Of a DNA stretch of 35,466 nucleotides, positions 4,236-23,417 are shown one piece after another. Positions within the stretch are counted from its first letter, which is position 1, and the number at the start of each line of letters is the position of its first letter. Source of the stretch: Chitinophagaceae bacterium (GTDB lineage Bacteria > Bacteroidota > Bacteroidia > Chitinophagales > Chitinophagaceae); contig SCQV01000291.1 in NCBI GenBank assembly GCA_004299085.1, positions 1 to 35,466 of the forward strand, in the 5' to 3' direction. The translations under genes and the position numbers were made by a program. Under the pieces are notes generated by a model. That model saw only the letters and a program-made list of their open reading frames with translations. It did no database searches and had not been told where the DNA came from.

Positions 4236-5138
4236 TCACTTGCGGGATAAAGGCGCTTTCAATTCGGATGAAAGATGGTCATATTGATGTTTATATTCAA
4301 GTGGGCTCATATTTTTTATTGTTCTGAACTGATGATTAAAATGGGACAGGCTGTTATATCCACAGGAATAACCCACTTCTGAAATGTTCATATTATCTTC
4401 TATAAGGCATTTACAGGCTTTCCCAATACGTATTTCCATCAGGAATTGCAGATATGTTTTGTTTGTCTTTTCTTTGAAGAAACGGCAAAATGTATGTTTG
4501 CCTACGTTGATCAGTGCAGCTAATTCGTCTATGGTTATTTGATTCTGATAATTGTTAAAAGTGTATTCGAATATAGCACTAAGACGAGCGTTGTCAATAC
4601 CGTCTGATTTATAGGAAAATCCTTCGGAAACAAGTTTTTGATATTGTTTCTTTTCTGCAATAAGCTGAAGTATCTGGAGAAGATCAAAGAATCTTTTTGA
4701 AGGATTTTCTTCAAGCATGGACGACATGATTCCCGCAACTTTTATTTTTGTCTGAGTAGCTAACTTGAGCCCTTTCCCCGACAAAGCAAGCATGGTGCCA
4801 ATTTCTTTCGTTTCGGGTAATTCAAGAAACCCTTTACCGAAAAGTTCTTTGGGAAATAATACTACTATAGCTTCTCCGGGTTGTTTATCTCTCTCCATAA
4901 TGTAAGAATAATCATGCCGGAAAGAATGGGGTAAATTAGGCCCAAGTAAAATAATATCACCGCTTTTGAATGGGCCTACATAGTCTCCGACGAGCCAGGT
5001 ACCCATGCTTCGCTTGATAAAGAGCAGCTCAAAGTCGGGATGATAATGCCAGTTATTTTTCATTTTGGTGCCGATGTCCTTTCGAACAATGAAAGAAGAT
5101 TCGGGTTCGGGAATTGCTTTACGTAAGGCAGGTTTCAT
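4236..5138 (-). CDS. AraC-family transcriptional regulator with cupin sensor domain
   Basis: This 300-residue protein has an N-terminal cupin-like ligand-binding half (WHYHPDFELLFI, then LLGPNLPHSF) and a C-terminal pair of helix-turn-helix units. The first unit is ITIDELAALINVGKHTFCRF; the second ends NISEVGYSCGYNSLSHFNHQ, followed by MSPLEYK, the AraC signature. These regulators usually activate sugar catabolic genes when the N-terminal half binds the sugar. It points toward the dehydrogenase and away from the GH29 gene, so it is the natural candidate regulator of either or both. The stop codons of this gene and the dehydrogenase touch (TAA|TCA), with no space for a terminator between them. 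Confidence 0.9.
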   Translation of the reverse strand: MKPALRKAIPEPESSFIVRKDIGTKMKNNWHYHPDFELLFIKRSMGTWLVGDYVGPFKSGDIILLGPNLPHSFRHDYSYIMERDKQPGEAIVVLFPKELFGKGFLELPETKEIGTMLALSGKGLKLATQTKIKVAGIMSSMLEENPSKRFFDLLQILQLIAEKKQYQKLVSEGFSYKSDGIDNARLSAIFEYTFNNYQNQITIDELAALINVGKHTFCRFFKEKTNKTYLQFLMEIRIGKACKCLIEDNMNISEVGYSCGYNSLSHFNHQFRTIKNMSPLEYKHQYDHLSSELKAPLSRK

Positions 5139-7505: not shown

Positions 7506-7513
7506 TAATTTTG
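7506..7513 (+). promoter_or_regulatory. candidate -7 element for the susC operon
   Basis: TAATTTTG matches TAnnTTTG exactly and ends 45 bases before the susC ATG, a suitable distance for a short leader. No TTTG or TTG is found at the expected 19-21 base spacing, which would fit an activator-dependent promoter. No other good match is seen in 7454-7558. Confidence 0.4.
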
Positions 7514-7558: not shown

Positions 7559-10500
7559 ATGAAAAGGATTATTCTTTTACTAGGAATTTTTACAGGTTGT
7601 TTTGCTTTCTGCAGCGTTGCCCTTTCCCAGCAACGACAAATAAATGGGACTGTGGTCAGCAGGGAGGGTAAACCCATTCAGGCCGCTACCCTGCAAATAG
7701 TTGGAACCACTATAGGTACCACTACGGATGAAAATGGCCATTTTATTTTGGAGGCCTCTCCCGGACAAAAGCTGAAAGTATCCTCTATAGGCTATGAGGC
7801 GTCCATTATCTCAGCAGATGCTCGGCTTTCCTATAAGATAGTTCTCACCTCTTCAGGTAAATCACTTGGAGAAGTTGTGGTTACTGCCCTGGGAGTAAAA
7901 AGGGAAAAGAAAGCCCTCGGTTATTCGGTACAAGAATTACAAGGTACTGATGTGAATATAGCAAAAGCTCCTGATTTAATTAATTCCCTTTCTGGAAAAG
8001 TGGCGGGACTTCAGGTGACAAGCGGAGGAAGTGCAGTGGGAACCTCCTCAAGGATAACGATCAGAGGAAGCTCGTCCTTCGGTGATAATTCTCCTCTTTT
8101 TGTAATTAATGGTGTTCCGGTGCTGAATTCATCCTCCGACTTAGATGGCGGAGGTGGAGTTGACTGGGGAGATCTGACTTCTGATATAGATGCCAATAAT
8201 ATAGCCTCTATTTCGGTTCTCAAGGGGCCAACTGCAGCAGCCTTATACGGAAGCCGGGCGGCAAATGGTGCTATTTTAGTTACTACTAAAGACGGGAGCA
8301 ATCTTAACAGGCGCCTCGGCGTGGATTATTCTTTTTCTTATGTCCTTAATAAGCCTGTGAATATATTAAGATGGCAGAATCAATATGGAGGAGGACAGGA
8401 CGGTGAGGAGTTTATATGGAAAAGGGATCATCCTGAAATGTCCTATCAGGATTATGCTAAAAAATATTCCTATAATTATGTGGATGGAAATGGAGGAGGC
8501 GTAAATGATGCGAATCCAGTTTCATGGGGACCGAGATTAGATGACGGGCTTAAGTTGGACCAATGGTCAACGGGACCTAATAGTCCATGGATATCCAGGC
8601 CGGATAATTACAAAGATTTTTTCCGTACAGGGAGTACGATGGAACATAGCATTGCAGTCTCTTCAAATGGTGAAAAAGCATCCGGAAGATTGGGTTTTAC
8701 CAGATCTGATATTTCCGGAATACTTTGGAATACCGATCAATCTCAGAATTCATTGGAAACAGGTATTACACTGACTCCTTCAAAAAAATTAACTGCTAAT
8801 GCAAATCTGACTTATTTGAAAAAAGAGAGCACAATTCCTCTTATAGGTTATTCGGGCGCAGGAATATATTACGGTTGGGTTCAGCGGGATTTTGACACTA
8901 AATATTCCTGGGATCAATTCAGTAAGCAGGGAAATAAAGGGTTTATGTTCCCTTTTCTGGATAATCCTTATTACTCTCTCATCAATACAAACACCCTGTC
9001 GAGAAACAGGTTATTTGGAGATGCCAAGATCAATTATCAAATCTTTGACTGGCTGAGTGCTACCGTAAGAGTTGGTACGGATTTTTATAATCAGTATAAC
9101 GAAAGTATTACGCGTGCGGGAGACGTTGCTAATGTAAGCACAGGAAAAGGGGGCCAGTATAGTTTAACAAGCATACAAAGCCAGGAAACAAACGCAGATT
9201 TCATTTTAAATTTTAATAAGAAAATAAACGAAAGATTTAGTATAGACGGCTTGGCCGGAGCCAACTATAGGGATAATATTTACAAAAGTATGTGGATGTA
9301 CGCTCCTGATCTGACGGTTCCTGATTTCTTTGCCATTTCAAACGTAAAAGGTACTCCGAGCGTTAATAATTATCTTTCACATAGAAGAACAAACGGCATT
9401 TATGGATCGGTAAATTTTTCTTATAATAATTATCTTTATCTGGGTCTTACCGGACGCAATGACTGGAGTTCTACTTTGCCGCCCAATTCCTGGTCATATT
9501 TTTATCCGTCTGTGAGCCTTTCATTCATTTTTACTGATGCATTGGGTATCAAATCTGATGTGTTGTCTTATGGCAAGATCCGGGGAAGCTGGTCGGAAGT
9601 GGGGCAGGATACAGGTCCTTATCAATTAAATAAGACTTATTCAATAGGAAACTTTGGAGGGGTATCCGTTTTTTCTCCTACCGGCACTCTCCCTCCTCTC
9701 AATCTTATGCCTCAGAAAACTAAATCTTTTGAATTTGGTACCAATCTGCGGTTTTTTAATAACCGGATAGGCCTCGATGTGACCTATTATGATCAAAAAA
9801 CGACCAATCAAATATTATCGGTACCTATTTCGATTGCAACAGGTTATGGATCAGAACTGATCAATGCAGGTGAAATTGAAAATAAGGGAGTGGAGGTAAT
9901 GCTGACCGGAGATATTTTAAAGAACCCAAATGGAGTTTCATGGGACATATCCATTAACTGGGCGAAGAATAAAAATATAGTGAACAAGCTTTATCATGGA
10001 ATAACAAATTATATTATGGGAACAGGCCCGGGAGGAATTGCCGTAGCGGGAATTCCGGGACAACAATGGGGTGTTCTATACGGAGTAGGGTATGTGCGGG
10101 ACGCGGGAGGTAATATTGTGATTGATGACAACGGTGTTCCGCTGACTTCAAATACTCCTAAAATATTAGGAAATACTTCTCCTAAATGGATAGCCGGGAT
10201 TCAGAACAATTTTTCATATAAAAATTTTAACCTTAGTTTCCTTTTAGATTCCAGGTGGGGTAGCCAATTCTTCAGTACTACATTGTGGCATGGATATTCT
10301 ACGGGTACCGCCCCTGTCACAGTGGCGAATAATGTCAGGGAGACGGGTATCATTGTAAAAGGAGTTACCGCAGATGGTAAGCCAAATACCAAGCGTATTT
10401 CGGCTCAGGACTACTTCGAAGGTCCATGGATGTGGAATAATGAAGAATATCCCATTATAGACGGGACTTTTATTAAATTAAGGGAAGTATCGTTGGGATA

Positions 10501-10714
10501 TTCTTTTAATGTAAGCAAAGTGAAATGGTTATATTCATTGAGGTTGTCTTTTATTGGAAGAGATCTGGATATCTTATATAGAAGTAAAAAAGCAAAAGAA
10601 AACGGCATCGATCCTGAAACCGGTTTTGGCGGGGGCAGCGCAGGTGTTGGGTGGGAGGATTATCAATTGCCCACCACTGCAAGTTATGGACTGAAGCTTA
10701 ATATTGGCTTTTAA
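7559..10714 (+). CDS. SusC/RagA-family TonB-dependent outer membrane transporter
   Basis: The product is 1051 residues. In order: a signal peptide (MKRIILLLGIFTGCFAFCSV), a carboxypeptidase-like regulatory domain (INGTVVSREGKPIQAA to VSSIGYEASI), the SusC linker TALGVKREKKALGYSVQE, a plug domain with ITIRGSSSFGDNSPLFVING and the conserved NIASISVLKGPTAAALYGSR, and a long 22-strand barrel ending in an aromatic residue (LKLNIGF). SusC proteins form the import pore closed by the SusD lid and use TonB energy to move oligosaccharides or peptides into the periplasm. There is no STN domain, so it is not an obvious sigma-factor transducer. It opens the eight-gene block; SusD follows after 34 bases. 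Confidence 0.95.
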   Translation: MKRIILLLGIFTGCFAFCSVALSQQRQINGTVVSREGKPIQAATLQIVGTTIGTTTDENGHFILEASPGQKLKVSSIGYEASIISADARLSYKIVLTSSGKSLGEVVVTALGVKREKKALGYSVQELQGTDVNIAKAPDLINSLSGKVAGLQVTSGGSAVGTSSRITIRGSSSFGDNSPLFVINGVPVLNSSSDLDGGGGVDWGDLTSDIDANNIASISVLKGPTAAALYGSRAANGAILVTTKDGSNLNRRLGVDYSFSYVLNKPVNILRWQNQYGGGQDGEEFIWKRDHPEMSYQDYAKKYSYNYVDGNGGGVNDANPVSWGPRLDDGLKLDQWSTGPNSPWISRPDNYKDFFRTGSTMEHSIAVSSNGEKASGRLGFTRSDISGILWNTDQSQNSLETGITLTPSKKLTANANLTYLKKESTIPLIGYSGAGIYYGWVQRDFDTKYSWDQFSKQGNKGFMFPFLDNPYYSLINTNTLSRNRLFGDAKINYQIFDWLSATVRVGTDFYNQYNESITRAGDVANVSTGKGGQYSLTSIQSQETNADFILNFNKKINERFSIDGLAGANYRDNIYKSMWMYAPDLTVPDFFAISNVKGTPSVNNYLSHRRTNGIYGSVNFSYNNYLYLGLTGRNDWSSTLPPNSWSYFYPSVSLSFIFTDALGIKSDVLSYGKIRGSWSEVGQDTGPYQLNKTYSIGNFGGVSVFSPTGTLPPLNLMPQKTKSFEFGTNLRFFNNRIGLDVTYYDQKTTNQILSVPISIATGYGSELINAGEIENKGVEVMLTGDILKNPNGVSWDISINWAKNKNIVNKLYHGITNYIMGTGPGGIAVAGIPGQQWGVLYGVGYVRDAGGNIVIDDNGVPLTSNTPKILGNTSPKWIAGIQNNFSYKNFNLSFLLDSRWGSQFFSTTLWHGYSTGTAPVTVANNVRETGIIVKGVTADGKPNTKRISAQDYFEGPWMWNNEEYPIIDGTFIKLREVSLGYSFNVSKVKWLYSLRLSFIGRDLDILYRSKKAKENGIDPETGFGGGSAGVGWEDYQLPTTASYGLKLNIGF

Positions 10715-10748
10715 GATAAATATTCTTTAACATAGTAAAGCTAATAAA

Positions 10749-12221
10749 ATGAAAAATATATTTAAATTGAGATTCATTGCCGCCTTCATTATATTGATAT
10801 TGTCAGGATCATGTACAAAGGATTTTATAAAGATCAATACAAATCCTAACTCTCCGACTTCCGTACCGGCAAGCAATGTATTGGGACAAGGCATTATTTC
10901 TACCGCCGGTTCTCTATTCAACACTAAAATGGACCTGTATTATGCCGGGTCTTATTCAGGAATGTCAGCAAGTCTTGGAGCGGGTAACGGAGATTATGAA
11001 TTCAGAGTTGATATAAACAACAGTTGGTGGTCGCGATTATATTCCTGTATGAACGACTTTGTGAGTGCAGATAGTTTAGCCAGCAAGGAGGGCAATACTA
11101 TTCTGGAGGCTGTTGCTTTAACAATGAAAGCATATACGGCGCAAACTACGACTGATATGTTTGGTGCAATCCCTTATTCGGAGGCCTTTGAAACGTCTAA
11201 AGGGATCATCTATCCTAAGTACGATAGCCAGCAGGATGTATATAAGGCCATTTTAAGTGAATTGAAGACAGCAGCGGATATTTTTAATAACGGACAAGGG
11301 GAAATTGGAGAAGGGGATTTTATTTTTCATGGAGACGTTTCTAAATGGAGAAAATTTTGCAATTCAATCAGGTTGAGAGCGGCTATGAGAATATCCAATG
11401 TGGACCCTGAAACTGCAAAATCTGTGGTCACGGAAATATTGGGAAATCCTGCCAACTATCCTGTGATGGCAAGCAATGATGATAATGCTTATTTATATTA
11501 TCCCGGTGGTTCCTTTAAGGATTTATGGAATTCTGATTCACAGGTTGGGAATGAAACATGGGGATGGTATAGATTGAATGATGTTTTAATTAGTACACTT
11601 AAGATGTTTAATGATCCCAGGTTGCCTGTCTATGCATTGCCTAATATCTGGGGGATTTATAATGGATATAAGTTTGGCCCTGCTCAACGTAGCGATACGA
11701 TGAATAACAGCAACAATTTGTCAAGGATAGGAGACCGGTTTGCTAATGATCCCCAGGGCTTTTCCCCTTTTATGAACTGCGCGGAAGTTTATTTTATGCT
11801 GGCGGAAGCTTATGAACGTAATTTGGCTTCCGGAGATGCACAAGAGGCATACGAAAATGGTATTAAAGCGTCAATGGAAGAAAACGGTGTGAATACTTCC
11901 GGCATTAATCAATTCCTGGCGGAACCAGGCATTGCCTGGAATACAGGCACGACAAGTAATTTGGATAAAATTTATCTTCAGGAATGGGTTTCTCTTTTCA
12001 AACATAGCCTTGAAGCCTGGTGTGTGGCAAGGAGAACAGATGTACCTCTTATGACAAATATTTCACAAGATTATGCGGGCAAGCATAACAGGCCTCCTTT
12101 CAGATTTCCGTATCCTAACTCCGAGATAACTTTAAATGTCCATTTTCCTAAAGATGTGAATAGTGTGGATATTTTTTGGGGAGATCAATTGTGGTGGGAT
12201 ACCAGAAAGAATGTTCATTGA
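10749..12221 (+). CDS. SusD/RagB-family nutrient-binding lipoprotein
   Basis: This 490-residue lipoprotein has a type II signal peptide with the lipobox LSGSC; Cys22 would be lipidated and the protein displayed on the outer face of the outer membrane. After KDFIKINTNPNSPTSVP it has the helical TPR-like scaffold of the SusD family (ALTMKAYTAQTTTDMFGAIP, KFCNSIRLRAAMRISNVD, FMNCAEVYFMLAEAYER). It should be the lid partner of the preceding SusC and choose which ligand enters. Its subgroup (starts with NTNPN, ends with DQLWWDTR) includes proteins paired with carbohydrate and with peptide loci, so the ligand class is not settled. Confidence 0.93.
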   Translation: MKNIFKLRFIAAFIILILSGSCTKDFIKINTNPNSPTSVPASNVLGQGIISTAGSLFNTKMDLYYAGSYSGMSASLGAGNGDYEFRVDINNSWWSRLYSCMNDFVSADSLASKEGNTILEAVALTMKAYTAQTTTDMFGAIPYSEAFETSKGIIYPKYDSQQDVYKAILSELKTAADIFNNGQGEIGEGDFIFHGDVSKWRKFCNSIRLRAAMRISNVDPETAKSVVTEILGNPANYPVMASNDDNAYLYYPGGSFKDLWNSDSQVGNETWGWYRLNDVLISTLKMFNDPRLPVYALPNIWGIYNGYKFGPAQRSDTMNNSNNLSRIGDRFANDPQGFSPFMNCAEVYFMLAEAYERNLASGDAQEAYENGIKASMEENGVNTSGINQFLAEPGIAWNTGTTSNLDKIYLQEWVSLFKHSLEAWCVARRTDVPLMTNISQDYAGKHNRPPFRFPYPNSEITLNVHFPKDVNSVDIFWGDQLWWDTRKNVH

Positions 12222-12267
12222 TTAAAAGATACAGCAATAGTTTATTAAATCATGTAATAGGTAACTT

Positions 12268-14739
12268 ATGGATAAGGGGATAAAAAGAATATTGTTAACC
12301 CTCGGGTGTAGTATGATGGTTTTATTTGGGTATGGTCAATATAAGGATGATATACCCGACAATATTCAAAATAAATCTTTTGATCCTTATACCCTTTTAT
12401 GGTACACCTCACCGGCTTCAAGGTGGAACGATGCATTGCCTGTAGGGAATGGCAGATTGGGAGCCATGGTATTTGGCGGCGTAGATGCAGGGCGCATTCA
12501 ATTGAATGAAGATACTTATTGGACCGGTGGTCCTTATTCCTCCGTAGTGAAAGGCGGATACAAATATCTGCCCGAAGTGCAACAACTGGTCTTTAAAGGG
12601 GAATGGTGGAAAGCGCAAAAATTGTTCGGCAGAAAGTTAATGGGTTATCCGGTTGAACAACAAAAATATCAGTCTTTAGCCGATTTGGTATTGTTTTTTG
12701 ATCATGAAGGGCAATATCAAAAATATCATCGTTGGCTTGATTTGAAAACAGGAATTGCCGGTATTCAATATACTGCTAATGGGATTACGTATAATCGTGA
12801 GGTATTTGCTTCAGATCCAGACCAGGTGATTGTGGTAAGGCTGACTGCTGATAAGCCTGGGAGCATCTCCTTTACAGCCAATCTCCGGGGTGTAAGAAAT
12901 CAGGATCATTCAAATTATGGAACTGATTATTTTGAAATGAACGGTGAAGGAAATAATCAATTGGTCTTAACAGGTAAATCAGCCGATTATCTTGGTATCA
13001 AAGGGAGAGAGAAATATGAAGCCAGGATTAAAGCTGTTCCCGAAGGTGGAACGATGACAATCAGTGAGGATACCCTGTTTATTAAAAATGCCAATGAGGT
13101 CACTCTTTATTTTGTCGCTGCCACTAATTTTGTCAATTACAAGGAGGTGAGTGCAGATCAGCATGCCCGGGTGATGGCTTACCTTGACGAATTCAGCCAT
13201 AAATCGTATCATGATATCAGAGAAACGGCTATACGGGATTACCAAAATCTGTTTGGAAGAGTTAAATTAAATCTTCCGCTGACAGCGGGTTCTTTTCTTC
13301 CTACGGATGAACGATTAAAGAACAGCAAAAAAGCCTCCGATCCCGCCTTAGCAGCTTTGGCTTACCAGTTCGGAAGGTTTGTGCTCATTACTTCCTCTCG
13401 TCCGGGTACACAGGCAGCTAACCTTCAGGGGATTTGGAATGAAGATTCAGATCCCATGTGGGATTCCAAATACACGACGAACATCAATACGGAAATGAAC
13501 TACTGGCCTGTAGAATCAGCTAATTTATCGGAATGTGCACAGCCCCTGATTCATTTGGTGGAGGACCTGACGGATGAAGGGGCTAAGGTGGCCAGAGAGC
13601 ATTATGGATGCCGTGGCTGGGTGTTTCATCAAAATACGGATTTATGGAGAGTGGCAGCTCCAATGGATGGCCCTACCTGGGGTACATTTACTGTGGGTGG
13701 AGCTTGGCTTACCACCCATTTATGGGAGCATTTTCTGTTTACAAGAGATACAGCCTATTTGAAAAAAATATATCCGGTAATCAAAGGATCCGTACAGTTT
13801 TTTATGGATTTTCTTGTAAAGCAGCCGGGAAGTGACTGGCTGGTGACAAACCCTTCTACTTCACCCGAAAACTTCCCCGAGCGACCGGGCAACAAACCTT
13901 TTTTCGACGAGGTAACGGGTGGTATCCGCCCGGGTACTAATATTTGCGCAGGCTCTTCTATTGATATGCAGATACTGCACGATTTATTCGGCTATTATAT
14001 TCAGGCAACAGAAGTACTTGACACAGACCATAATTTTGCCGCTAAAGTATCGGAATCCAGAAAAAGATTGCTTCCGCCTCAGGTAGGTAAAGATGGCATG
14101 TTGCAGGAATGGGCACAGGATTGGGGACAGACCGAAGCGCATCATCGCCATCTCTCTCCTTTATATGGATTATACCCTGGAAATGTATTTTCTTCTGCTG
14201 AAACACCCCGGTTGATAGGGCCCTGTAAAGCATTGCTGGAGCAAAGAGGCGATGAAAGCTCGGAATGGTCAAGGGCGTGGAAGGTATGCTTATGGGCACG
14301 TTTAGGTGACGGCAACAGGGCAAATAGCATCCTGACGGGCTATTTTAATGAAGGATGCCATTCCCAACTTTTCGCGGGTATGTCAGATGGAAGAGTAATG
14401 CAGATAGACGGTACCATGGGTGTAACTGCCGGAATAACAGAAATGATCATACAGTCACAACAAGGCATTATAAGGCTTTTGCCGGCATTACCTGATGTAT
14501 GGAGTAAGGGAGAGTTTAACGGGGTATGTGCAAGAGGAGCGTTCGAGATAAATATGCAATGGGCAAAGAAGCAGATTATCCGGGCCGAAGTCCTTTCAAA
14601 AGAAGGAGGTATATGCCGCATTAATGCAGGACGCGCCGTGCAGGTAACTCATAACGGAAAAAGAATACGCACAAAAAAAATGAATGACGGCTCCATAGTC
14701 TTTACAACTCTAAAAGGAAATACATACCTGCTTAATTAA
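12268..14739 (+). CDS. GH95 alpha-L-fucosidase (or alpha-L-galactosidase)
   Basis: The product is 823 residues with a signal peptide ending near GYGQ. Family GH95 is shown by RWNDALPVGNGRLGAMVFGG and RIQLNEDTYWTGGP in the N-terminal beta domain. Catalytic (alpha/alpha)6 motifs follow: NINTEMNYWP (N405 and N407, which position the water), TNPSTSPENFPE (E534 fits the acid) and GRVMQIDGTMG (D714 fits the base partner), numbered here by motif alignment. GH95 enzymes cleave terminal alpha-1,2-L-fucose with inversion; some prefer L-galactose. The gene is 46 bases after SusD, so it belongs to the operon, and together with the GH29 enzyme it covers several fucosyl linkages. Confidence 0.93.
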   Translation: MDKGIKRILLTLGCSMMVLFGYGQYKDDIPDNIQNKSFDPYTLLWYTSPASRWNDALPVGNGRLGAMVFGGVDAGRIQLNEDTYWTGGPYSSVVKGGYKYLPEVQQLVFKGEWWKAQKLFGRKLMGYPVEQQKYQSLADLVLFFDHEGQYQKYHRWLDLKTGIAGIQYTANGITYNREVFASDPDQVIVVRLTADKPGSISFTANLRGVRNQDHSNYGTDYFEMNGEGNNQLVLTGKSADYLGIKGREKYEARIKAVPEGGTMTISEDTLFIKNANEVTLYFVAATNFVNYKEVSADQHARVMAYLDEFSHKSYHDIRETAIRDYQNLFGRVKLNLPLTAGSFLPTDERLKNSKKASDPALAALAYQFGRFVLITSSRPGTQAANLQGIWNEDSDPMWDSKYTTNINTEMNYWPVESANLSECAQPLIHLVEDLTDEGAKVAREHYGCRGWVFHQNTDLWRVAAPMDGPTWGTFTVGGAWLTTHLWEHFLFTRDTAYLKKIYPVIKGSVQFFMDFLVKQPGSDWLVTNPSTSPENFPERPGNKPFFDEVTGGIRPGTNICAGSSIDMQILHDLFGYYIQATEVLDTDHNFAAKVSESRKRLLPPQVGKDGMLQEWAQDWGQTEAHHRHLSPLYGLYPGNVFSSAETPRLIGPCKALLEQRGDESSEWSRAWKVCLWARLGDGNRANSILTGYFNEGCHSQLFAGMSDGRVMQIDGTMGVTAGITEMIIQSQQGIIRLLPALPDVWSKGEFNGVCARGAFEINMQWAKKQIIRAEVLSKEGGICRINAGRAVQVTHNGKRIRTKKMNDGSIVFTTLKGNTYLLN

Positions 14740-14761
14740 ATAATACATCCAAACGGAATTG

Positions 14762-17008
14762 ATGAAAACAAAAATCTTTTTTTCAGCCTGTTTTATCTTA
14801 CTTAGCTTTGTCTGCCCATTTGCGGCTCGCGGACAACATGCTGTCTTGACACTACGGGATATTTATTCAAACAACATTTATAGTTCAAAAGGCTTTGGAC
14901 CGGTCAGGTGGATGAAAGATAATACCGGTTATTCTACGCTCGAAAGAAATGAACAATATGGCGGAAACGACATCGTGAGATATGATGCTGAAACAGGTAA
15001 GAGGACGGTACTGGTTTCTGCCAAGCAGTTGATACCTGCAGGAGAGACTACTCCTCTGAACGTCGAAAATTATAGTTGGTCGGACGATGATAATGAGCTG
15101 CTGATATTTACAAATACAAGACGGGTATGGAGATATCATACACGCGGCGATTACTGGGTACTGAACCTTAAATCGGGCAAACTGCAGCAACTTGGCCTGT
15201 CGGTGAAACGTACCACCATGATGTTTGCGAAATTCTCACCGGATGGATCCAGGGTTGCGTATGTAAGCGAGCAAAATATTTATGTGGAATATCTGACCAC
15301 AGGAAGGATCAAGCAAATAACGTTTGATGGAGGCAAAAATATTATCAACGGTACTTTTGATTGGGTCTATGAGGAGGAATTGGACGATAGGGATGGTTTT
15401 CGATGGAGCCCTGATGGGAAATATATTGCCTATTGGCAATCCGATACGAAAAATATAGGTACATTCTATTTAATTGATAACGTTGATTCCCTGTACTCAA
15501 GGCCTATTCCGTTACCTTACCCCAAGGTCGGAACAGCTCTTTCGGCTGTGAAGATTGGTGTCATTCCTGCTTCAGGTGGTAATACGAAATGGTTCAATAT
15601 ACCTGGTGATCCTGCGAATAACTACCTTGCCCGGATAGATTTTATTCCCCATTCAAACGAGGTGATGATCCAGCAACTGAACCGAAAGCAGGATACAAAT
15701 AAAATCTGGATCGGCGATATTTCATCCATGAAAATAAAAAATATATTGACCGATAGGGATCCTTGTTTTCTGGATGTACATGATGATATACGTTGGTTTG
15801 ATCATGAAAAATATTTTACATGGACAAGCGAGCGGGACGGATGGAGGCATTTGTATAAAGTTTCCAGAGACGGGAAGGAAATAGAGTTGATAACCAAAGG
15901 TGATTTTGATGTAGTAAACATTAATTGTATTGATCCCACAGGTGGATTCGTTTATTACATAGCTTCTCCGGAAAACTATACACAAAGATATCTTTACCGA
16001 AGCAGGATGGATGGAAAAGGTGGTGCTGAACGAGTGACGCCTGAAGATATGAAGGGAGAGAGCAGTTACCAGATTTCTGCGAATGCAAAGTGGGCCATTC
16101 AAATGTTCCAGAATGTTACTACCCCACCGGTGTATTCGTTGATCAGCCTTCCCAGTCATTCTGAAGTAAGGGTATTAGAAGATAATCATGAATTAAAAGA
16201 GAAGTATGAAAACCTTGGCTTAAATTCTAAAGCATTCTTTAAGGTAAATATCGGAGAGGTGACGTTGGACGCATGGATCATAAAACCCCGTGGTTTTGAT
16301 CCTCAGAAGAAATATCCGTTACTTTTTTACGTATATGGCGAACCTGCAGGCTCTACGGTGCAGGACGATTGGGAAGGCGGCGACCTCTGGCATCAGTATA
16401 TGGCGCAACAGGGATGTGTGGTAATCAGCATTGACAACAGAGGTACAAAAACACCGCGTGGAAAGGCATGGCGTAATTCCATTTACGGCCAAATAGGTAT
16501 TCTGGCTTCACAGGATCAGGCAAAAGCGGCGCTTAAGATATTTAAGATGTTTCCGTTTATTGATACTTCCAGAGTGGGAATATGGGGCTGGAGCGGAGGA
16601 GGCCAAATGACCCTTAATTGTATATTCAGGTATCCGGAAATTTATAAAACAGGCCTGGCAGTTTCATTTGTTTCGGATCAGCGGCTTTATGATGCAACCT
16701 ATCAGGAGCGATATATGGGATTGCTCAGTGAAAATGCCAAAGGATATCATGATGGTTCGCCAATTAATTATGCCCGAAACCTGCAGGGAGAATTAATGAT
16801 TATACATGGAACAGCCGATGATAACGTTCATTATCAAAGCTTTGAAATGTTGGTCAATGAGCTGATAAAAGATAATAAGCTTTTTTACATGATGTCTTAT
16901 CCAATGCGTTCGCACGGCATTTATGAAAGGGAAAACACTTCCCTTCATTTGCGGGAAATGATGGAGCGTTATTGGAAGGAACATTTGCTCGGAAGCCCGT
17001 GTAAATGA
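14762..17008 (+). CDS. dipeptidyl-peptidase IV-type serine peptidase (S9B)
   Basis: ATG 14762 gives 748 residues with a signal peptide ending near ARGQ; a TTG three bases upstream is less likely. The front is a DPP-IV beta-propeller containing FDWVYEEELDD, whose Glu pair anchors the substrate N-terminus and marks it as an exo-dipeptidase. The C-terminal alpha/beta hydrolase domain has GWSGGGQ (nucleophile S611, with Gly where many members have Tyr), HGTADDNVHYQ (D686) and TSLHLREMM (H729). It removes X-Pro or X-Ala dipeptides from peptide N-termini in the periplasm. It sits 22 bases after the GH95 gene and 20 before serine dehydratase, clearly within the operon. Confidence 0.93.
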   Translation: MKTKIFFSACFILLSFVCPFAARGQHAVLTLRDIYSNNIYSSKGFGPVRWMKDNTGYSTLERNEQYGGNDIVRYDAETGKRTVLVSAKQLIPAGETTPLNVENYSWSDDDNELLIFTNTRRVWRYHTRGDYWVLNLKSGKLQQLGLSVKRTTMMFAKFSPDGSRVAYVSEQNIYVEYLTTGRIKQITFDGGKNIINGTFDWVYEEELDDRDGFRWSPDGKYIAYWQSDTKNIGTFYLIDNVDSLYSRPIPLPYPKVGTALSAVKIGVIPASGGNTKWFNIPGDPANNYLARIDFIPHSNEVMIQQLNRKQDTNKIWIGDISSMKIKNILTDRDPCFLDVHDDIRWFDHEKYFTWTSERDGWRHLYKVSRDGKEIELITKGDFDVVNINCIDPTGGFVYYIASPENYTQRYLYRSRMDGKGGAERVTPEDMKGESSYQISANAKWAIQMFQNVTTPPVYSLISLPSHSEVRVLEDNHELKEKYENLGLNSKAFFKVNIGEVTLDAWIIKPRGFDPQKKYPLLFYVYGEPAGSTVQDDWEGGDLWHQYMAQQGCVVISIDNRGTKTPRGKAWRNSIYGQIGILASQDQAKAALKIFKMFPFIDTSRVGIWGWSGGGQMTLNCIFRYPEIYKTGLAVSFVSDQRLYDATYQERYMGLLSENAKGYHDGSPINYARNLQGELMIIHGTADDNVHYQSFEMLVNELIKDNKLFYMMSYPMRSHGIYERENTSLHLREMMERYWKEHLLGSPCK

Positions 17009-17028
17009 GGACTTAAAGCAGTAGCTAC

Positions 17029-18591
17029 ATGACAAATTATCCCAGTATTTTCAATGATATCATCGGCCCGGTAATGCGGGGGCCGTCCAGTTCCCATTCT
17101 GCAGCTTCCCTGAGAATAGGGAGGCTTTGCAGGGACCTGATGGATGGTAATATAACGCATGTTTTGGTCGAGTTCGATCCTAACGGCTCTTTGGCAAATA
17201 CGCATAAGGGCCAGGGATCGGATATGGGATTATTCGGCGGGTTTCTCGGATGGGAAGCGGATGACGAACGCTTGCCTGTATCAGAGCGATATATTTCTGA
17301 TGCCGGCATTCAAGTCAAATTTGTAATCAGGGATATCGGTGCAAAACATTTAAATACTTATCACATTACATTGAGTAATCCCCTTGAAACGAGGACCTTA
17401 ATGGCGATCTCCACAGGCGGAGGTATGATTGAAGTGATAGCCATTGACGGAGCCGGAGTCTCTGTAAAGGGAGATTTCTATGAAACTCTGATTTATTGCA
17501 AGGCGACAGACAGGATTTTAGAATTAATTAATAAAGAGATGTCTTATGATTACCTGACCGTGTATAAGGGCAATGACGGCGCGGTTTTCATTGAAATAAA
17601 GGCGCAAAGTTTTCCGGGTGGATCGCTTTACGTACCATTGGCTTCTATGGAGGAAGTGATGTTTATCAAAAAGCTGGCCCCTGTACTTCCTGTCTTGTCC
17701 AGGAAAGATATTAAAGTACCTTTTACTACATGCAATGAAATGCTGGATTATAATAGGGGCAAAGATATTTCCTTATTGGAGCTGGCTGTTCGTTATGAAA
17801 GTGAGCGGGGAAATATTTCTGAAGAAGAAATTTTTGAGAAGATGGGGAGGATAGTGCGTATTTTACAAGATTCCATTAAACAGGGGTTGCAAGGCACGCA
17901 ATATGCAGACCGGTTGTTAGGAAGCCAGTCTGTAAACTTTAAGGATCAGTTACAACGCAAGCGATTGATAGAAGCGGGAGTACTTCATAATATTGTGATG
18001 TATGTCTCTGCATTAATGGAGGTAAAAAGTTCTATGGGAGTCATTGTGGCGGCTCCCACTGCCGGATCGTGCGGTGCGCTCCCGGGTGCTGTGATGGGAA
18101 CCGCCGATTTTCTTGGAATGCCGGAAGTTGAGGTCATTAAAGCCATGTTGGTAGCAGGTATAATTGGGATTTTTATTTCGACACAGTCCACTTTTGCAGG
18201 AGAAGTAGCGGGTTGTGGAGTGGAGTATGGATCCGGAGGCAGCATGGCCTCTGCAGCGATAGTTTATCTGGCTAAAGGCTCGCTTGCCCAATCTCTTGCT
18301 GCAGCTTCTCTGGTACTGCAAAGCACTCTTGGTATGACGTGTACGCCCATCGCCAACAGAGTGGAAGCCCCCTGTCTGGGCAATAATGTGATGGCAGCTA
18401 CCAACGCAATCTCTTTTGCCAATATGGCGCTTTCGGGCTATGACGAATTAATTCCCCTGGATGAAGTGATCAAAACGATGTACACCATTGGAATGGGAAT
18501 ACCGCATGAATTCAAGTGCACTAATATAGGTGGGTTGTGTGCTACAAGAACAGCTAAAATACTGGAAGAAAGATTGAACTCAGCACAGTAA
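17029..18591 (+). CDS. sdaA: iron-sulfur L-serine dehydratase (beta and alpha domains fused)
   Basis: This is a 520-residue cytoplasmic enzyme. The beta domain opens with FNDIIGPVMRGPSSSHSAAS. The alpha domain begins around residue 230 (LLELAVRYESERGNISEEE), then has VAAPTAGSCGALPGAVMG, the Gly-rich EYGSGGSMAS, and MTCTPIANRVEAPCLGNN. The Cys residues in these motifs hold the oxygen-sensitive [4Fe-4S] cluster. It converts L-serine to pyruvate and ammonia. At 520 residues it is longer than the common single-chain form of about 400-460, because of an extended link between the domains. Its place between two peptidases suggests it uses serine released from imported peptides. Confidence 0.9.
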   Translation: MTNYPSIFNDIIGPVMRGPSSSHSAASLRIGRLCRDLMDGNITHVLVEFDPNGSLANTHKGQGSDMGLFGGFLGWEADDERLPVSERYISDAGIQVKFVIRDIGAKHLNTYHITLSNPLETRTLMAISTGGGMIEVIAIDGAGVSVKGDFYETLIYCKATDRILELINKEMSYDYLTVYKGNDGAVFIEIKAQSFPGGSLYVPLASMEEVMFIKKLAPVLPVLSRKDIKVPFTTCNEMLDYNRGKDISLLELAVRYESERGNISEEEIFEKMGRIVRILQDSIKQGLQGTQYADRLLGSQSVNFKDQLQRKRLIEAGVLHNIVMYVSALMEVKSSMGVIVAAPTAGSCGALPGAVMGTADFLGMPEVEVIKAMLVAGIIGIFISTQSTFAGEVAGCGVEYGSGGSMASAAIVYLAKGSLAQSLAAASLVLQSTLGMTCTPIANRVEAPCLGNNVMAATNAISFANMALSGYDELIPLDEVIKTMYTIGMGIPHEFKCTNIGGLCATRTAKILEERLNSAQ

Positions 18592-18667
18592 ATCTTTCGG
18601 AGAATGATTTATATAAGCTTTTCGTTAAAGGATCTTTTCAGGGTGTTTAATCGCAAAAACAGCATAA

Positions 18668-20326
18668 ATGAGGAAGACTATTCTATTTCTTTTTTTGACC
18701 TTACTTGTTTTTCAGGAAGTGTTTTCTCAGGATAAGAAGGTGTTTACTCATGCCGATACCTTGCGCGGTTCCGATACTCCTCAGCGCGCATGGTGGGATG
18801 TTACATTTTATGATTTGCATGTATGCGTAAATCCTGAGGACAGTAGCATTTCAGGATACAATGGAATTACTTACAAAGTCATAAAAACTTCTTCTTCTCA
18901 AAATGACCCTTCCGGTAATGAAATGCAGATTGACCTTATGACCCCGCTGATGATAGATAGTGTTGTCCAGGATGGCAGGAGGCTACAATTTCACAGAGAA
19001 GAAAATGCTTTCTTTATTGAGCTGATATCCGAACAGCCTTTAGGTTCACATAATTCACTCAGGGTCTATTACCATGGCAGGCCAAGGATAGCTAGGAATC
19101 CACCCTGGGACGGAGGGTTTATCTGGAAACGGGATAGTCTTGGTAACCCATGGATCGCGACGGCATGCCAGGGAGTTGGTGCGAGTATTTGGTGGCCCAA
19201 CAAGGATTTTCAGGCAGATGAACCTGACAGCCAGCGGATAGCTATTACCGTGCCCGATACTTTAATGGATGTATCCAATGGACGTTTACGAAAAAGGATC
19301 CTAAATCCGGATGGAACAATGACTTATGAATGGTTCGTACGCAATCCTATCAATAATTATGATGTGGCTGTAAATATTGCCAAATATGTCCACTTCCATG
19401 ATGTGTATAAGGGTGAAAAAGGTCCGCTTACTCTGGATTATTATGTATTGCCTTATCATCTGGAACAGGCCGAAAGCCAGTTTCAGCAGGTCAAATCCAT
19501 GCTGAAATGTTTTGAATATTGGTTCGGGCCTTATCCCTGGTACAAAGATGGATATAAGTTGGTGGAAGCGCCTTATTTGGGTATGGAACACCAAAGTTGT
19601 ATCGCTTATGGCAATCATTACGGTAATGGTTATTTGGGCCGCGATCTTTCGGGTACCGATTGGGGATCGAAATGGGACTTTATTATCGTACATGAAAGTG
19701 CACATGAATGGTTCGGTAATAATATTACCACAAAGGACCTGGCGGATATGTGGGTGCATGAAAGCTTTGCCAACTATGCAGAGAGTCTATATACTGAATG
19801 CCTGTTTGGCAAAAAAGCAGGGGCGCAGTATGTGGAGGGTGTTCGCCATGTTAAAAATGATGAACCTATTGTCGGGCGCTATGGAGTGAATGATGAAGGA
19901 TCGGGAGACATGTATAACAAAGGAGGTAATATGCTGCATACCATCCGTCAGATTCTTCATGATGATACGAAGTGGCGGAATATATTACGCGGGTTGAACA
20001 GAACCTTTTGGCACCAAACAGTTACCGGAAAACAAATTGAAGATTATATCAGTGAAAATTCAGGAATTGATTTGAGTAAAGTATTTCATCAATATCTGAA
20101 CACTACTGAAATTCCGGTCTTTGAATATAAGATACATGGCTCATTGCTAAACTACAGATGGTCGAATGTCGTTCCCGGTTTCAATATGCCGTTAAAGGTT
20201 TCTTTTTCAAGAGATCAATATGTCTTTATTTATCCTATTACGGCATGGAAAAGTATGCCGGTGCCAGATATAAAGGATTTAAAAGTGGATCAAGATTTTT
20301 ATGTGGAGGCAAAACGAGTTAATTAG
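18668..20326 (+). CDS. M1-family zinc aminopeptidase
   Basis: The product is 552 residues with a signal peptide (MRKTILFLFLTLLVFQEVFS). The gluzincin site is complete: HESAHEW (H342, E343, H346) and WVHESFANY supplying the third ligand E365 at the standard spacing. The exopeptidase motif, usually GAMEN, reads YLGMEHQS, a form found in Bacteroidota members. The N-terminal part is a beta saddle domain. At 552 residues it lacks the long helical C-terminal domain of PepN and resembles the short LTA4H-like type. It would take single residues from peptide N-termini in the periplasm, following DPP-IV. The 76-base gap before it is the largest inside the operon. It ends in two consecutive TAG codons. 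Confidence 0.9.
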   Translation: MRKTILFLFLTLLVFQEVFSQDKKVFTHADTLRGSDTPQRAWWDVTFYDLHVCVNPEDSSISGYNGITYKVIKTSSSQNDPSGNEMQIDLMTPLMIDSVVQDGRRLQFHREENAFFIELISEQPLGSHNSLRVYYHGRPRIARNPPWDGGFIWKRDSLGNPWIATACQGVGASIWWPNKDFQADEPDSQRIAITVPDTLMDVSNGRLRKRILNPDGTMTYEWFVRNPINNYDVAVNIAKYVHFHDVYKGEKGPLTLDYYVLPYHLEQAESQFQQVKSMLKCFEYWFGPYPWYKDGYKLVEAPYLGMEHQSCIAYGNHYGNGYLGRDLSGTDWGSKWDFIIVHESAHEWFGNNITTKDLADMWVHESFANYAESLYTECLFGKKAGAQYVEGVRHVKNDEPIVGRYGVNDEGSGDMYNKGGNMLHTIRQILHDDTKWRNILRGLNRTFWHQTVTGKQIEDYISENSGIDLSKVFHQYLNTTEIPVFEYKIHGSLLNYRWSNVVPGFNMPLKVSFSRDQYVFIYPITAWKSMPVPDIKDLKVDQDFYVEAKRVN

Positions 20327-20355
20327 TAGAATAATTATTAATCAATAAAATTATT

Positions 20356-21747
20356 ATGTTCAAAAAAGAAGTATATATCAAAAGAAGACAACGACTGAAG
20401 GAACTGGTCGGCAACGGTATGATCCTTTTGTTGGGAAATGATGAAAGTAGCATGAATTATAAGGATAACTGCTATGCCTTCCGCCAAGACAGTACCTTTC
20501 TGTATTTTTTTGGAATAGACAGGCCGGGTCTTACTGCTGTTTTAGATATTGACACGGATAAAGAAATAGTATTTGGGAATGACATAAGCGTAGAGGATAT
20601 TATTTGGACAGGGCCTCTGGAATCCCTGGCTGATCAGGCAAACAGAGCCGGCATTAGGGAGGTGAGGCCTTTGGGTGATATCGAAAAAATGATTGATAAA
20701 ATCCGGTCTAAGGAGAGTTTCATACATTTTCTGCCTCCCTATAGGCCTGAAAATAAGCAAAAATTAAACAGTTGGATCCATATACCGCTTGAAAAGGTTA
20801 ATGAAAGCGCTTCCGTTCTGTTGATCAGGTCGGTAGTTGCCTTGAGATCCGTTAAAGATGCAGAAGAGATTGAAGAAATAGAAAAAGCGATTAATGTGAC
20901 CATTGATATGCAGAAGAAAGCAGGCAATCTTGCCAGAGAAGGAATATCTGAAACTGCAATTGCCGGAGATCTTCATGGAATGGCGCTAAGTGCCTGTGGC
21001 GACCTGTCCTTCCCGACAATTCTGACGGTGAACGGACAGATCCTTCATAACCATTTCCAAGGAAATATTTTGAAAAGCGGACAAATGATCCTATGCGATT
21101 GTGGTGCAGAAAGTTCTATGCATTATGCCGGAGATTTAACCCGCACTTTTCCGGTTGACAGCACATTTACAACAAAGCAAAAAGAAATCTACCATATTGT
21201 GCTAATGGCACATGAAGCCGCTGCCGGAGCCCTCAAAGCCGGTATTTTATTTAAGGATATTCATGTGTTAGCCTGTGAAAAGTTGGCGGAAGGATTGAAG
21301 GATATAGGCCTGATGAAAGGAGATATAAAAGAAGCGGTGGTGGAAGGCGTCCATGCCATGTTTTTTCAGTGTGGCTTGGGACACATGCTGGGCCTTGATG
21401 CACATGATATGGAAGATCTCGGAGAACAATATGTCGGATATACTGATCAGTTACAAAAAAGCACACAATTCGGATTAAAATCGTTACGGTTGGGCAAAGC
21501 AATAGAGCCTGGTTTTGTATTGACCGTAGAACCCGGAATTTATTTTATACCGGAATTAATTGATTGGTGGAAAGGAGAAAAGCGGTTTCCTGATTTTATC
21601 AATTATAATGAGCTGGAAAGATATAAAAATTTCGGAGGTATCAGGATTGAGGAAGATTTTTTGATCACGGAAACAGGCAGCCGTTTATTAGGAAAGTACT
21701 TGCCCAGAACGGCAGAAGCTGTTGAGTCCATTAAGGTCGGATTTTAA
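20356..21747 (+). CDS. M24B Xaa-Pro aminopeptidase / prolidase
   Basis: This is a 463-residue cytoplasmic metallopeptidase without a signal peptide. An aminopeptidase-P N-terminal domain (FRQDSTFLYFFGIDRPG) precedes a pita-bread domain. The five ligands of its two metals are seen in ILCDCGAESS (D248), YAGDLTRTF (D260), GLGHMLGLDAHD (H343), VEPGIYF (E392) and IRIEEDF (Glu near 432). It cuts the bond between any N-terminal residue and a following proline, in peptides or X-Pro dipeptides. This is exactly the step needed after import of DPP-IV products. Its stop codon overlaps the next gene's start (TAATG), so the two are translationally coupled. Confidence 0.93.
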   Translation: MFKKEVYIKRRQRLKELVGNGMILLLGNDESSMNYKDNCYAFRQDSTFLYFFGIDRPGLTAVLDIDTDKEIVFGNDISVEDIIWTGPLESLADQANRAGIREVRPLGDIEKMIDKIRSKESFIHFLPPYRPENKQKLNSWIHIPLEKVNESASVLLIRSVVALRSVKDAEEIEEIEKAINVTIDMQKKAGNLAREGISETAIAGDLHGMALSACGDLSFPTILTVNGQILHNHFQGNILKSGQMILCDCGAESSMHYAGDLTRTFPVDSTFTTKQKEIYHIVLMAHEAAAGALKAGILFKDIHVLACEKLAEGLKDIGLMKGDIKEAVVEGVHAMFFQCGLGHMLGLDAHDMEDLGEQYVGYTDQLQKSTQFGLKSLRLGKAIEPGFVLTVEPGIYFIPELIDWWKGEKRFPDFINYNELERYKNFGGIRIEEDFLITETGSRLLGKYLPRTAEAVESIKVGF

Positions 21748-23417
21748 TGGCTGATAATACTATAGCTGAGAACGGGCACCCGAGAGGCCTTTATGTGCTC
21801 TTTTTCACTGAATTATGGGAGCGTTTCGGCTTCTATCTCATGGTGGGCATATTTATGCTTTACCTGATTGACCCTGCCAGCAACGGGGGAAAAGGAATGA
21901 GTATTGCCCGTGCTGCTGATATGGTGGGTTCCTACATTGCACTTGTATTTTTTACTCCTTTTATAGGTGGTTTATTGGCCGACAGGGTATTAGGCTACCG
22001 AAAAGCAATTATACTGGGAGGCATTTTACTGGCTCTCGGCTATTACGGACTTGCCCTTGGAGGGAATACCAGTATGTATATCTCTCTGTTGCTGATCATT
22101 GTGGGTAACGGATTTTTTAAGCCGAATATCAGCACCTTACTGGGAAATCTTTATAACAAAGAAGGACTCCGCTCAAAGAAAGATACGGCCTATAATATCT
22201 TTTATATGGGCACCAACATTGGTGCGTTCGTTTGCAATTTTGTAGCTGCTTATATGCGTAATCATTTTGGCTGGGGATATGCTTTTGCCACTGCCGGTGT
22301 AGGGATGACACTCGGCGTCCTTTGGTTTATTTTGGGAATGAAGCATGTCAAAGAAGGGGATGCCATTCGTCCTGTCCAAAAGGAAGACATGCCATTAAAA
22401 AAGATCGGAGCTTATGTTTTTCTTCCTGCAATGCTGGCAGCAGGTGCCGGTTGGTTTTACACTGATATCTTCGGATATGCTCTCTTCGGTACCCGCTCCA
22501 ATGATGCTTTTATGTTTGCCTGTATTCCTGTAATTATATTTTATATATTACTGTATGTACGTTCTTCGAAAAAGGACAAACGGGGATTAGGCGCTCTTTT
22601 TTCTTTCTTTATCGTGACATTGGTCTTTTGGGTGGTTTTTAATCAGAATAGCACTGCGCTGACGGTTTGGGCTGATCAATATACGAACCGGGAAATGCCT
22701 GTTTCCATAGAAAAAGCCGTACGCCCGTTTGGGATGTTGCAAACAGTTTCTGCTGTTCCCCATGAGGTTCCCAAAGTGGATCAATACCTGCGGGTACAGG
22801 TTGATGCACATGGACGGGAAATGCAAACAATGGGAACTGATCCTTATTTTCAGAACCTCCCAAAAGAAAAGTGGCCTCATAATGGGGAATTGAAACTACT
22901 CTCTCCGGAAATATTTCAATCCATTGATCCTCTTTTTATCATATTGCTGACTCCTTTGTTGGTGGGATTGTTTTCCTGGTTGGCCCGGCGAAAAAAGGAA
23001 CCCGCAACACCTGTAAAAGTAAGCCTGGGTGTTTTTATTGCAGGATTATCCTCTTTATTAATGATCATTGCAATTTCTACCACCGATATTTATCACAATA
23101 AGGTAGGCATGCTTTGGCTGTTCTCAACTTATGTGATGGTAACCATCGGAGAATTGCTGGTGAGTCCCATTGGCTTATCCATGGTGTCTAAGCTGTCCCC
23201 TGTCAGGCTCACTGCATTAATGATGGGCGCCTGGTTTCTTGAGAATTCTATTGCGGGTAAATTAGCCGGCCTTATGACCAGTTTCTGGGGCAGCTTTATA
23301 GACAAAAGAAATTATTTTCTGATCCTGGTGATAGCCGCCTGTATTGCTGCATTGGCAACCTTTATTATAAGTAAACCTTTGTCCGGAGTAATTCGTGAAA
23401 GGACAGGTTCAAATTAA
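21747..23417 (+). CDS. POT/PTR-family proton-coupled di/tripeptide transporter
   Basis: This 556-residue inner membrane protein has 12 or more hydrophobic segments. The POT signature ExxERF is in TELWERFGFYLM near residues 18-29, where the Glu and Arg couple protons to peptide binding. A second family motif is NGFFKPNISTLLGNLY. A soluble stretch around residues 300-390 breaks the helices, a common feature in Bacteroidota POT proteins. It imports di- and tripeptides with protons. Coupling by a one-base overlap to the Xaa-Pro aminopeptidase gene suggests that X-Pro dipeptides are the cargo. It ends the operon; no clear terminator follows. Confidence 0.93.
   Translation: MADNTIAENGHPRGLYVLFFTELWERFGFYLMVGIFMLYLIDPASNGGKGMSIARAADMVGSYIALVFFTPFIGGLLADRVLGYRKAIILGGILLALGYYGLALGGNTSMYISLLLIIVGNGFFKPNISTLLGNLYNKEGLRSKKDTAYNIFYMGTNIGAFVCNFVAAYMRNHFGWGYAFATAGVGMTLGVLWFILGMKHVKEGDAIRPVQKEDMPLKKIGAYVFLPAMLAAGAGWFYTDIFGYALFGTRSNDAFMFACIPVIIFYILLYVRSSKKDKRGLGALFSFFIVTLVFWVVFNQNSTALTVWADQYTNREMPVSIEKAVRPFGMLQTVSAVPHEVPKVDQYLRVQVDAHGREMQTMGTDPYFQNLPKEKWPHNGELKLLSPEIFQSIDPLFIILLTPLLVGLFSWLARRKKEPATPVKVSLGVFIAGLSSLLMIIAISTTDIYHNKVGMLWLFSTYVMVTIGELLVSPIGLSMVSKLSPVRLTALMMGAWFLENSIAGKLAGLMTSFWGSFIDKRNYFLILVIAACIAALATFIISKPLSGVIRERTGSN

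Follow-up and report, generated by a model that had tools for sequence, protein, structure and literature searches.

The 35,466-nucleotide contig SCQV01000291.1 of a Chitinophagaceae bacterium (GenBank assembly GCA_004299085.1), analysed here over its whole length (G000:C225; hereafter the window), exhibits a block of eight genes (positions 7559 to 23417). With a probability of roughly 0.55, we interpret this block as a utilisation locus for a fucose-bearing wall glycoprotein of plants or green algae, rich in serine and hydroxyproline (or in proline), that is, an extensin-like or arabinogalactan-protein-like hydroxyproline-rich glycoprotein (HRGP). This prediction from sequence builds on direct observations of gene content, gene order, recurrence, and linkage or co-occurrence with genes for hydroxyproline (Hyp) catabolism. 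Extensins and arabinogalactan proteins (AGPs) are widespread in plant and green-algal walls, and the literature searched says little about bacterial use of the polypeptide in them. If the reading is correct, the coupling of deglycosylation, prolyl-dipeptide release and Hyp catabolism would show the return of that nitrogen and carbon, and the locus supplies a concrete gene set for testing it.

All eight genes lie on the forward strand, each as an open reading frame (ORF), in the order SusC, SusD, GH95, dipeptidyl peptidase IV (DPP-IV or DPP4), a serine-dehydratase-like (SDH-like) enzyme, M1, M24 and POT (Table 1). An earlier note on this DNA had described a tightly spaced block of these eight genes, and the same-strand ORFs indeed match the families it named. 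The gaps are 34, 46, 19, 20, 76, 29 and -1 bases in block order; the one-base overlap of the last pair and the upper figure of the range previously given (20 to 76) are thus retained, the lowest positive gap being 19. The DPP4 ORF starts with TTG and then ATG; counted from the ATG (probably at 14762), the gap before it is 22. The neighbouring SusC and SusD homologues and the linked carbohydrate-active enzymes, GH95 inside the block and GH29 adjoining, give the locus the gene content of a Sus-like polysaccharide utilisation locus (PUL). This GH29 fucosidase, which the earlier note overlooked, ends 546 bases before the SusC start, with an AraC-type regulator divergently oriented upstream of it. 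Leaders judged by eye from the translations are lipoprotein-like in SusD and of export type in GH29, GH95, DPP-IV and M1, none being seen in SDH and M24. This pattern fits an outside-to-inside pathway.

The SDH-like gene represents a rare subfamily (13 of 294 genomes of the family at E 1e-60) and offers a convenient anchor for comparison. We drew 41 loci of this subfamily: 23 of 47 from a scan of genome contigs, 12 from the family survey and six (58-62% identity) from a survey of the phylum, where the subfamily occurs in 10 of 395 genomes at E 1e-100. Removal of two duplicates at 97% identity left 39 loci, the window excluded, all at 49% identity or more. Three distant loci (L157-L159, 35-38%), of which L157 has DPP4 near, were left out, and the remaining 24 of the 47 scanned loci, being of canonical type (34% or less), were kept out of the subfamily counts. 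"Near" means within 10 kb of SDH where the contig reaches, and loci are treated as independent in Fisher tests. Near the 39 SDH genes we found DPP4 in 14, GH95 in nine, M24 in six and a member of the dihydrodipicolinate synthase (DHDPS) family resembling pyrroline-4-hydroxy-2-carboxylate (Pyr4H2C) deaminase in four; Hyp-epimerase-like (HypE), D-amino-acid oxidase (DAO) and aldehyde dehydrogenase (ALDH) genes each occur once. None of DPP4, GH95, M24, HypE-like or DHDPS genes was found in 20 canonical-SDH neighbourhoods (14-20 kb), where one locus has an M1 relative (41%) and another a weak SusC relative (25%). The difference is significant for DPP4 (14/39 against 0/20, p = 0.001) and for GH95 (9/39 against 0/20, p = 0.017), and it persists among the 24 loci whose contig extends 5 kb in either direction (DPP4 within 5 kb in nine, against 0/20, p = 0.002). 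In the family, the DPP4 subfamily occurs in seven of 294 genomes, all seven among the 13 with the SDH subfamily (p = 5e-11, at most three DPP4 candidates being scored per genome). Thus GH95-DPP4-SDH-M24 is a recurring module, of which M1 and POT are looser parts. This recurrence, with none near canonical SDH, rejects a chance assembly of neighbours; it also answers the possibility, raised in the earlier note as a refutation, that the peptidases lie at unrelated loci in all close relatives. Pairwise identities of SDH, DPP4 and GH95 correlate (r 0.63-0.86), mostly through shared ancestry, and are not used as evidence.

At one further locus (L083, genome G294), the genes on either side of an SDH-GH95 pair are related to those bordering the window block (aminotransferase, DUF1573 and E1-dehydrogenase), which suggests a shared chromosomal site; DPP4 lies far from the pair in that genome. 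Scanned neighbours of SDH relatives without DPP4 exhibited no common theme, save in a Geobacteraceae metagenome-assembled genome (L048:8915-15296), where SDH adjoins an aldo-keto reductase, a member of the ornithine cyclodeaminase (OCD) family, aconitase X (AcnX) and a remote relative of proline racemase. Together these resemble a 3-hydroxyproline set.

The SDH-like protein has the domain order beta domain, ACT-like segment, alpha domain. It matches the SDH_alpha profile, and SDH_beta below its cut-off; it is divergent, scoring under the cut-off of all five NCBIfam models matched. The best fold match of its predicted model (mean pLDDT 76.9) is the Legionella pneumophila L-serine dehydratase (LpLSD, PDB 4RQO; TM 0.74 by target), with which it shares the fold, the three Fe-S cysteines (C396, C438 and C449, invariant in 26 aligned rows) and the GPSSSH motif. 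It differs from LpLSD in having the ACT-like segment between its two parts, extra conserved cysteines and a glutamine at the position of His61, with an invariant histidine three residues earlier. His61 of LpLSD is the likely base, H61A being inactive (PMC12647591; here and below, papers are cited for the portions available). This histidine is kept in 42/42 canonical SDH sequences compared and replaced by glutamine in 39/40 subfamily members, the exception being L048 (counts read by eye from aligned rows), so that the canonical TG-x-x-H reads TH-x-x-Q. Because of this replacement the name L-serine dehydratase, under which the subfamily is perhaps misnamed, is unsafe for the window enzyme. The lost base leaves the serine deamination proposed previously weak, although the enzyme may still act on serine via another base. 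A bolder and rather doubtful proposal would make it a new [4Fe-4S] amino-acid lyase, its base moved from the GHGTD histidine to the invariant Thr-His three residues earlier, which would be no serine dehydratase and would act on another hydroxy amino acid met in HRGPs, because its occurrence in Bacteroidota tends to follow Hyp genes; the locus would then form one programme of stripping glycans, cutting X-Hyp dipeptides and burning the imino acid. The subfamily, which spans several phyla, exhibits the Thr-His near the glutamine site and the extra cysteines (C348, C497) as conserved features. The ordinary SDH of the window's genome is located elsewhere (contig C577). Horizontal transfer of the SDH-like gene seems likely from sequence comparison, since it is nearest to those of Algoriphagus (L032, 83% identity) and Ginsengibacter (L033, 82%), far from the 11 other family loci (65% or less), and without a copy in a congener.

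In the DPP-IV (S9B; DPPIV_N and Peptidase_S9 domains), alignment to 5olj locates the Ser-Asp-His triad and the glutamate pair (GWSGG 610, DDNVH 687, HGI 719, EE 205). The POT protein belongs to the PTR2 family. The M24 protein, with AMP_N and M24 domains, had been named an Xaa-Pro aminopeptidase; the family assignment stands, but among solved structures it is nearer to human prolidase, an Xaa-Pro dipeptidase (E 4e-55), than to Escherichia coli aminopeptidase P (best E 2e-40).

Hydroxyproline, the best clue to the substrate, had been overlooked in the earlier note. The trans-4-Hyp route draws on the proline racemase, DAO, DHDPS and ALDH superfamilies (PMC4113996). Pfam scans of SDH neighbours reveal a DAO with a proline-racemase family member at L081, a DHDPS family member with an aldehyde dehydrogenase at L089, and DHDPS at L032 (Algoriphagus antarcticus); DHDPS was found by similarity at L033 (Ginsengibacter hankyongi, of the Chitinophagaceae) and L080. 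In the window's genome, contig C22 (L107) carries DHDPS-like, ALDH, HypE-like and DAO genes side by side at 10.2-15.3 kb, the ALDH and DAO being assigned by BLAST only. By similarity this is the gene set of the pathway, and a route from Hyp to alpha-ketoglutarate is predicted. Across the family, DHDPS-like genes occur in 139 of 294 genomes (12/13 with the SDH subfamily against 127/281 others, p = 7e-4) and HypE-like genes in 138 (10/13 against 128/281, p = 0.026). None of the 13 lacks both; by genus, the figures are 9/9 against 58/101 overall (p 0.005). Among 30 further SDH-bearing genomes, DHDPS and the HypE family (E 1e-60) are each found in 21, three HypE matches being weak (34-37%). In the 10 of these with DPP4 near SDH (nine from the 39 loci and the distant G443), DHDPS or HypE is always present, and both are in seven; the other 20 have DHDPS in 12 and strong HypE in 10. 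The tie is not general, because Hyp genes are mostly absent with distant SDH records (Planctomycetota, Desulfobacterales, Oceanospirillum; 49-54%). Ginsengibacter (L115, L079; G068 C33) has three DHDPS genes of the Pyr4H2C-deaminase-like kind. Two are no more than about 25 kb from SDH, and sulfatases, M28 and two M1 peptidases lie in the vicinity.

One relative, G264, unites most of these elements in a 43-kb locus (C13, about 41.7-84.3 kb). It carries, with other genes interspersed, POT, DHDPS, Bac_rhamnosid6H, GH127, Melibiase_2 (GH27-type), SusD, SusC, GH95, DAO, HypE-like, AraC, M24, M1, SDH, DPP4 and Melibiase (GH36-type) genes. Extensins are built of Ser-Hyp3-5 with Hyp-arabinosides and galactosyl-serine (PMC8160292), and GH127 releases their Hyp-bound arabinose (PMC4454575). 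The GH127 and alpha-galactosidases of G264 are therefore as expected for an extensin (Hyp-arabinose, Ser-galactose). Between the plant and mucin substrates offered previously, the Hyp genes of relatives and these glycosidases in one of them favour the plant or algal half, mucin not being favoured.

We put together a mechanism from known parts; the substrate, the locations and every reaction in it are predictions. SusCD would import a glycopeptide, from which GH95 and GH29 would remove terminal fucose (or L-galactose) in the periplasm. DPP-IV would release X-Pro or X-Hyp dipeptides from the N-terminus, where M1 would take off other residues. POT would carry di- and tripeptides to the cytosol, where the prolidase-like M24 would split them. 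Hyp would then enter the separate C22 set (epimerase-like, D-amino-acid-oxidase-like, Pyr4H2C-deaminase-like and alpha-ketoglutarate-semialdehyde-dehydrogenase-like), ending in alpha-ketoglutarate, and the SDH-like enzyme would deaminate a beta-hydroxy amino acid, for which serine and threonine are the simplest candidates.

The Ginsengibacter block also holds an aldo-keto reductase, an Amidohydro_2 protein and an alcohol dehydrogenase, presumably serving oxidative fucose use; an Amidohydro_2 relative (43%) lies on a 4.7-kb contig of the window's genome. The GH95 protein has three GH95 Pfam domains and keeps the catalytic asparagine pair (NIN aligned to solved relatives). Alignment to the same relatives places a threonine at its Thr370/His419 position, a residue found there in both fucosidases and L-galactosidases (PMC4491172, PMC8245568). 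Specificity cannot be read from this Thr/His residue, a threonine enzyme being a proven fucosidase (PMC8245568). Together, GH95 and GH29, by their predicted activities, point to a substrate capped with L-fucose or L-galactose, between which the -1 site residue does not decide.

Several observations weigh against a glycoprotein locus of this kind. SusC and SusD are each near SDH in 1/39 loci, and M1 (1/39) and POT (0/39) are not conserved near SDH subfamily genes at the identity thresholds applied. At the thresholds applied, 22/39 loci have no DPP4, GH95, M24 or Hyp genes near, many of the 22 being in other phyla or near contig ends. Hyp genes lie within 10 kb of SDH in only 5/39, and those of the window's genome are on another contig and not in the block. 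A DHDPS match is lacking in G161 (100% complete) and a HypE match in G292 (99%), as also in G135 (69%) and G205 (63%). Co-occurrence of SDH and Hyp genes is weak evidence, because Hyp genes are present anyway in about half of the family genomes (138 and 139 of 294) and genomes are not independent. The SDH and DPP4 subfamilies are absent from the congener G001, though it has Hyp genes, and the glutamine described above replaces the catalytic base. GH127 and alpha-galactosidases are seen in one relative only; scans of the window did not reveal them, and the search did not extend to the remainder of this genome. Finally, the word fucose has 0 occurrences in the searched portion of an extensin review (PMC8160292) and AGPs are listed with alpha-fucosidase in PMC4454575, so that a land-plant extensin may be a poorer fit than an HRGP of AGP-like or algal kind.

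Two other explanations are unlikely. The block might be an ordinary PUL for a fucosylated polysaccharide (GH29, GH95, GH78) beside general protein-turnover peptidases, the common strand being incidental. Xyloglucan is indeed among the glycans on which GH95 enzymes act (PMC8245568, PMC4491172), a GH78 pseudogene follows the block, and M1 and POT are not conserved in it. Nevertheless, the joint recurrence of GH95, DPP4, SDH and M24 extends over several genera and is not seen at the 20 canonical SDH genes, and the window proteins that were scanned include no endo-glycanase. Alternatively, and with similarly little likelihood, a peptide-importing SusCD might scavenge Pro-rich peptides in general, collagen-like or from mixed protein, with GH95 trimming incidental glycans. 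Four of the eight block genes are peptidase or peptide-transport genes, and the weaker solved matches of the window SusD include BT_2263, which we take to be a peptide-importing SusD. Hyp is also highly abundant in collagen (PMC9044972). Against this explanation stand GH95 within 10 kb in nine of 39 loci, and GH127 with alpha-galactosidases in one relative's block.

Mucin-like glycoproteins are rich in Pro, Ser and Thr and fucosylated. Use of these or other animal glycoproteins is nonetheless improbable: a PUL with a peptidase is known for mucin (PMC11992087) and sialate-acetylesterase-type genes (PF03629) occur in the Ginsengibacter and G264 blocks, but scans of window proteins and of part of the neighbours revealed no hexosaminidase, sialidase or M60-like gene. 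Hyp genes are present instead. Fucose also occurs in O-glycans of Bacteroidota. Recycling of the bacterium's own fucosylated O-glycoproteins is the least probable explanation: Bacteroidota species have general O-glycosylation (PMC10897501), but SusCD, POT and the Hyp genes suggest an external Hyp-containing protein, and the SDH subfamily is patchy (13/294 family genomes).

The HRGP reading may be compared with known systems. The mucin PUL BT4240-50 of Bacteroides thetaiotaomicron likewise joins SusCD, exo-glycosidases and a peptidase in one glycoprotein locus; its M60-like glycopeptidase makes the earlier statement that usual polysaccharide loci carry glycosidases only too strong (PMC11992087). 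In contrast, the window block has Pro/Hyp exo-peptidases, an inner-membrane peptide transporter and an amino-acid lyase; an M60-like endo-glycopeptidase was not seen here, and the glycosidases differ. HypBA of Bifidobacterium longum and Xanthomonas euvesicatoria (PMC7263609, PMC6085000) also targets plant HRGPs, and the G264 block shares its GH127, not found in the window; those systems concern arabinose chains, whereas here peptide and amino acids appear to be used. The trans-4-Hyp clusters (PMC4113996) share epimerase, DAO, DHDPS- and ALDH-family genes with C22 and, in part, with the relatives' blocks; some relatives, unlike those clusters, join them to GH95 and DPP-IV, two also to SusCD, the set being on a separate contig here. 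HRGP degradation was proposed earlier for Latescibacteria from gene lists with GH127, GH29 and GH95, and the available part of that paper exhibits no locus with peptide and Hyp catabolism (PMC4454575). We recognised no described locus of this kind in our searches of the open-licence PMC literature, and one may still be in print.

Table 1. Predicted features of the window, with positions, strand and supporting matches
Feature	Position	Strand	Basis
AraC-type regulator, candidate regulator	4236..5138	-	PF12833 E 2e-18; divergent from GH29
GH29 alpha-L-fucosidase, likely periplasmic	5462..7012	+	PF01120 E 6e-106; leader judged by eye
TAATTTTG, candidate -7 box upstream of SusC (weak)	7506..7513	+	window motif count not above chance
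SusC/RagA TonB-dependent transporter	7559..10714	+	TIGR04056 569.5 bits, cut-off 368
SusD-like_2 surface lipoprotein	10749..12221	+	PF12771 E 3e-90; nearest solved chain 5j5u
GH95 exo-glycosidase, alpha-L-fucosidase or alpha-L-galactosidase	12268..14739	+	PF22124 E 7e-153; solved relatives 7kmq, 2rdy, 4ufc
Dipeptidyl peptidase IV-like S9B	14759..17008	+	PF00930 + PF00326; nearest solved 5olj, 7y4f
Divergent [4Fe-4S] serine-dehydratase-like enzyme	17029..18591	+	PF03313; predicted model best matches 4RQO
M1 metallopeptidase, likely periplasmic	18668..20326	+	PF01433 E 4.5e-17; HESAH-x18-E motif
M24 prolidase-like (Xaa-Pro / Xaa-Hyp dipeptidase), likely cytosolic	20356..21747	+	PF00557 + PF05195
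POT-family di/tripeptide:H+ symporter	21747..23417	+	PF00854; TIGR00924 307.7 bits, cut-off 130
GH78 alpha-L-rhamnosidase pseudogene	23761..27051	+	one frame from ATG, three in-frame TAG codons

The -7-like motif TANNTTTG is not above chance in the window (31 found, 35.5 expected); of its matches from GH29 to the end of POT, only the one upstream of SusC is intergenic. Scans for sigma-70 promoters (66 found, 53.2 expected) and terminators (20 found, 16.2 expected) were uninformative. Recoding of TAG was rejected as the cause of the broken GH78, TAG being the normal stop elsewhere, e.g. in M1; since it terminates other genes normally, GH78 is pseudogene-like. Downstream of GH78 lie 2-oxo-acid dehydrogenase genes, including sucA and sucB types.

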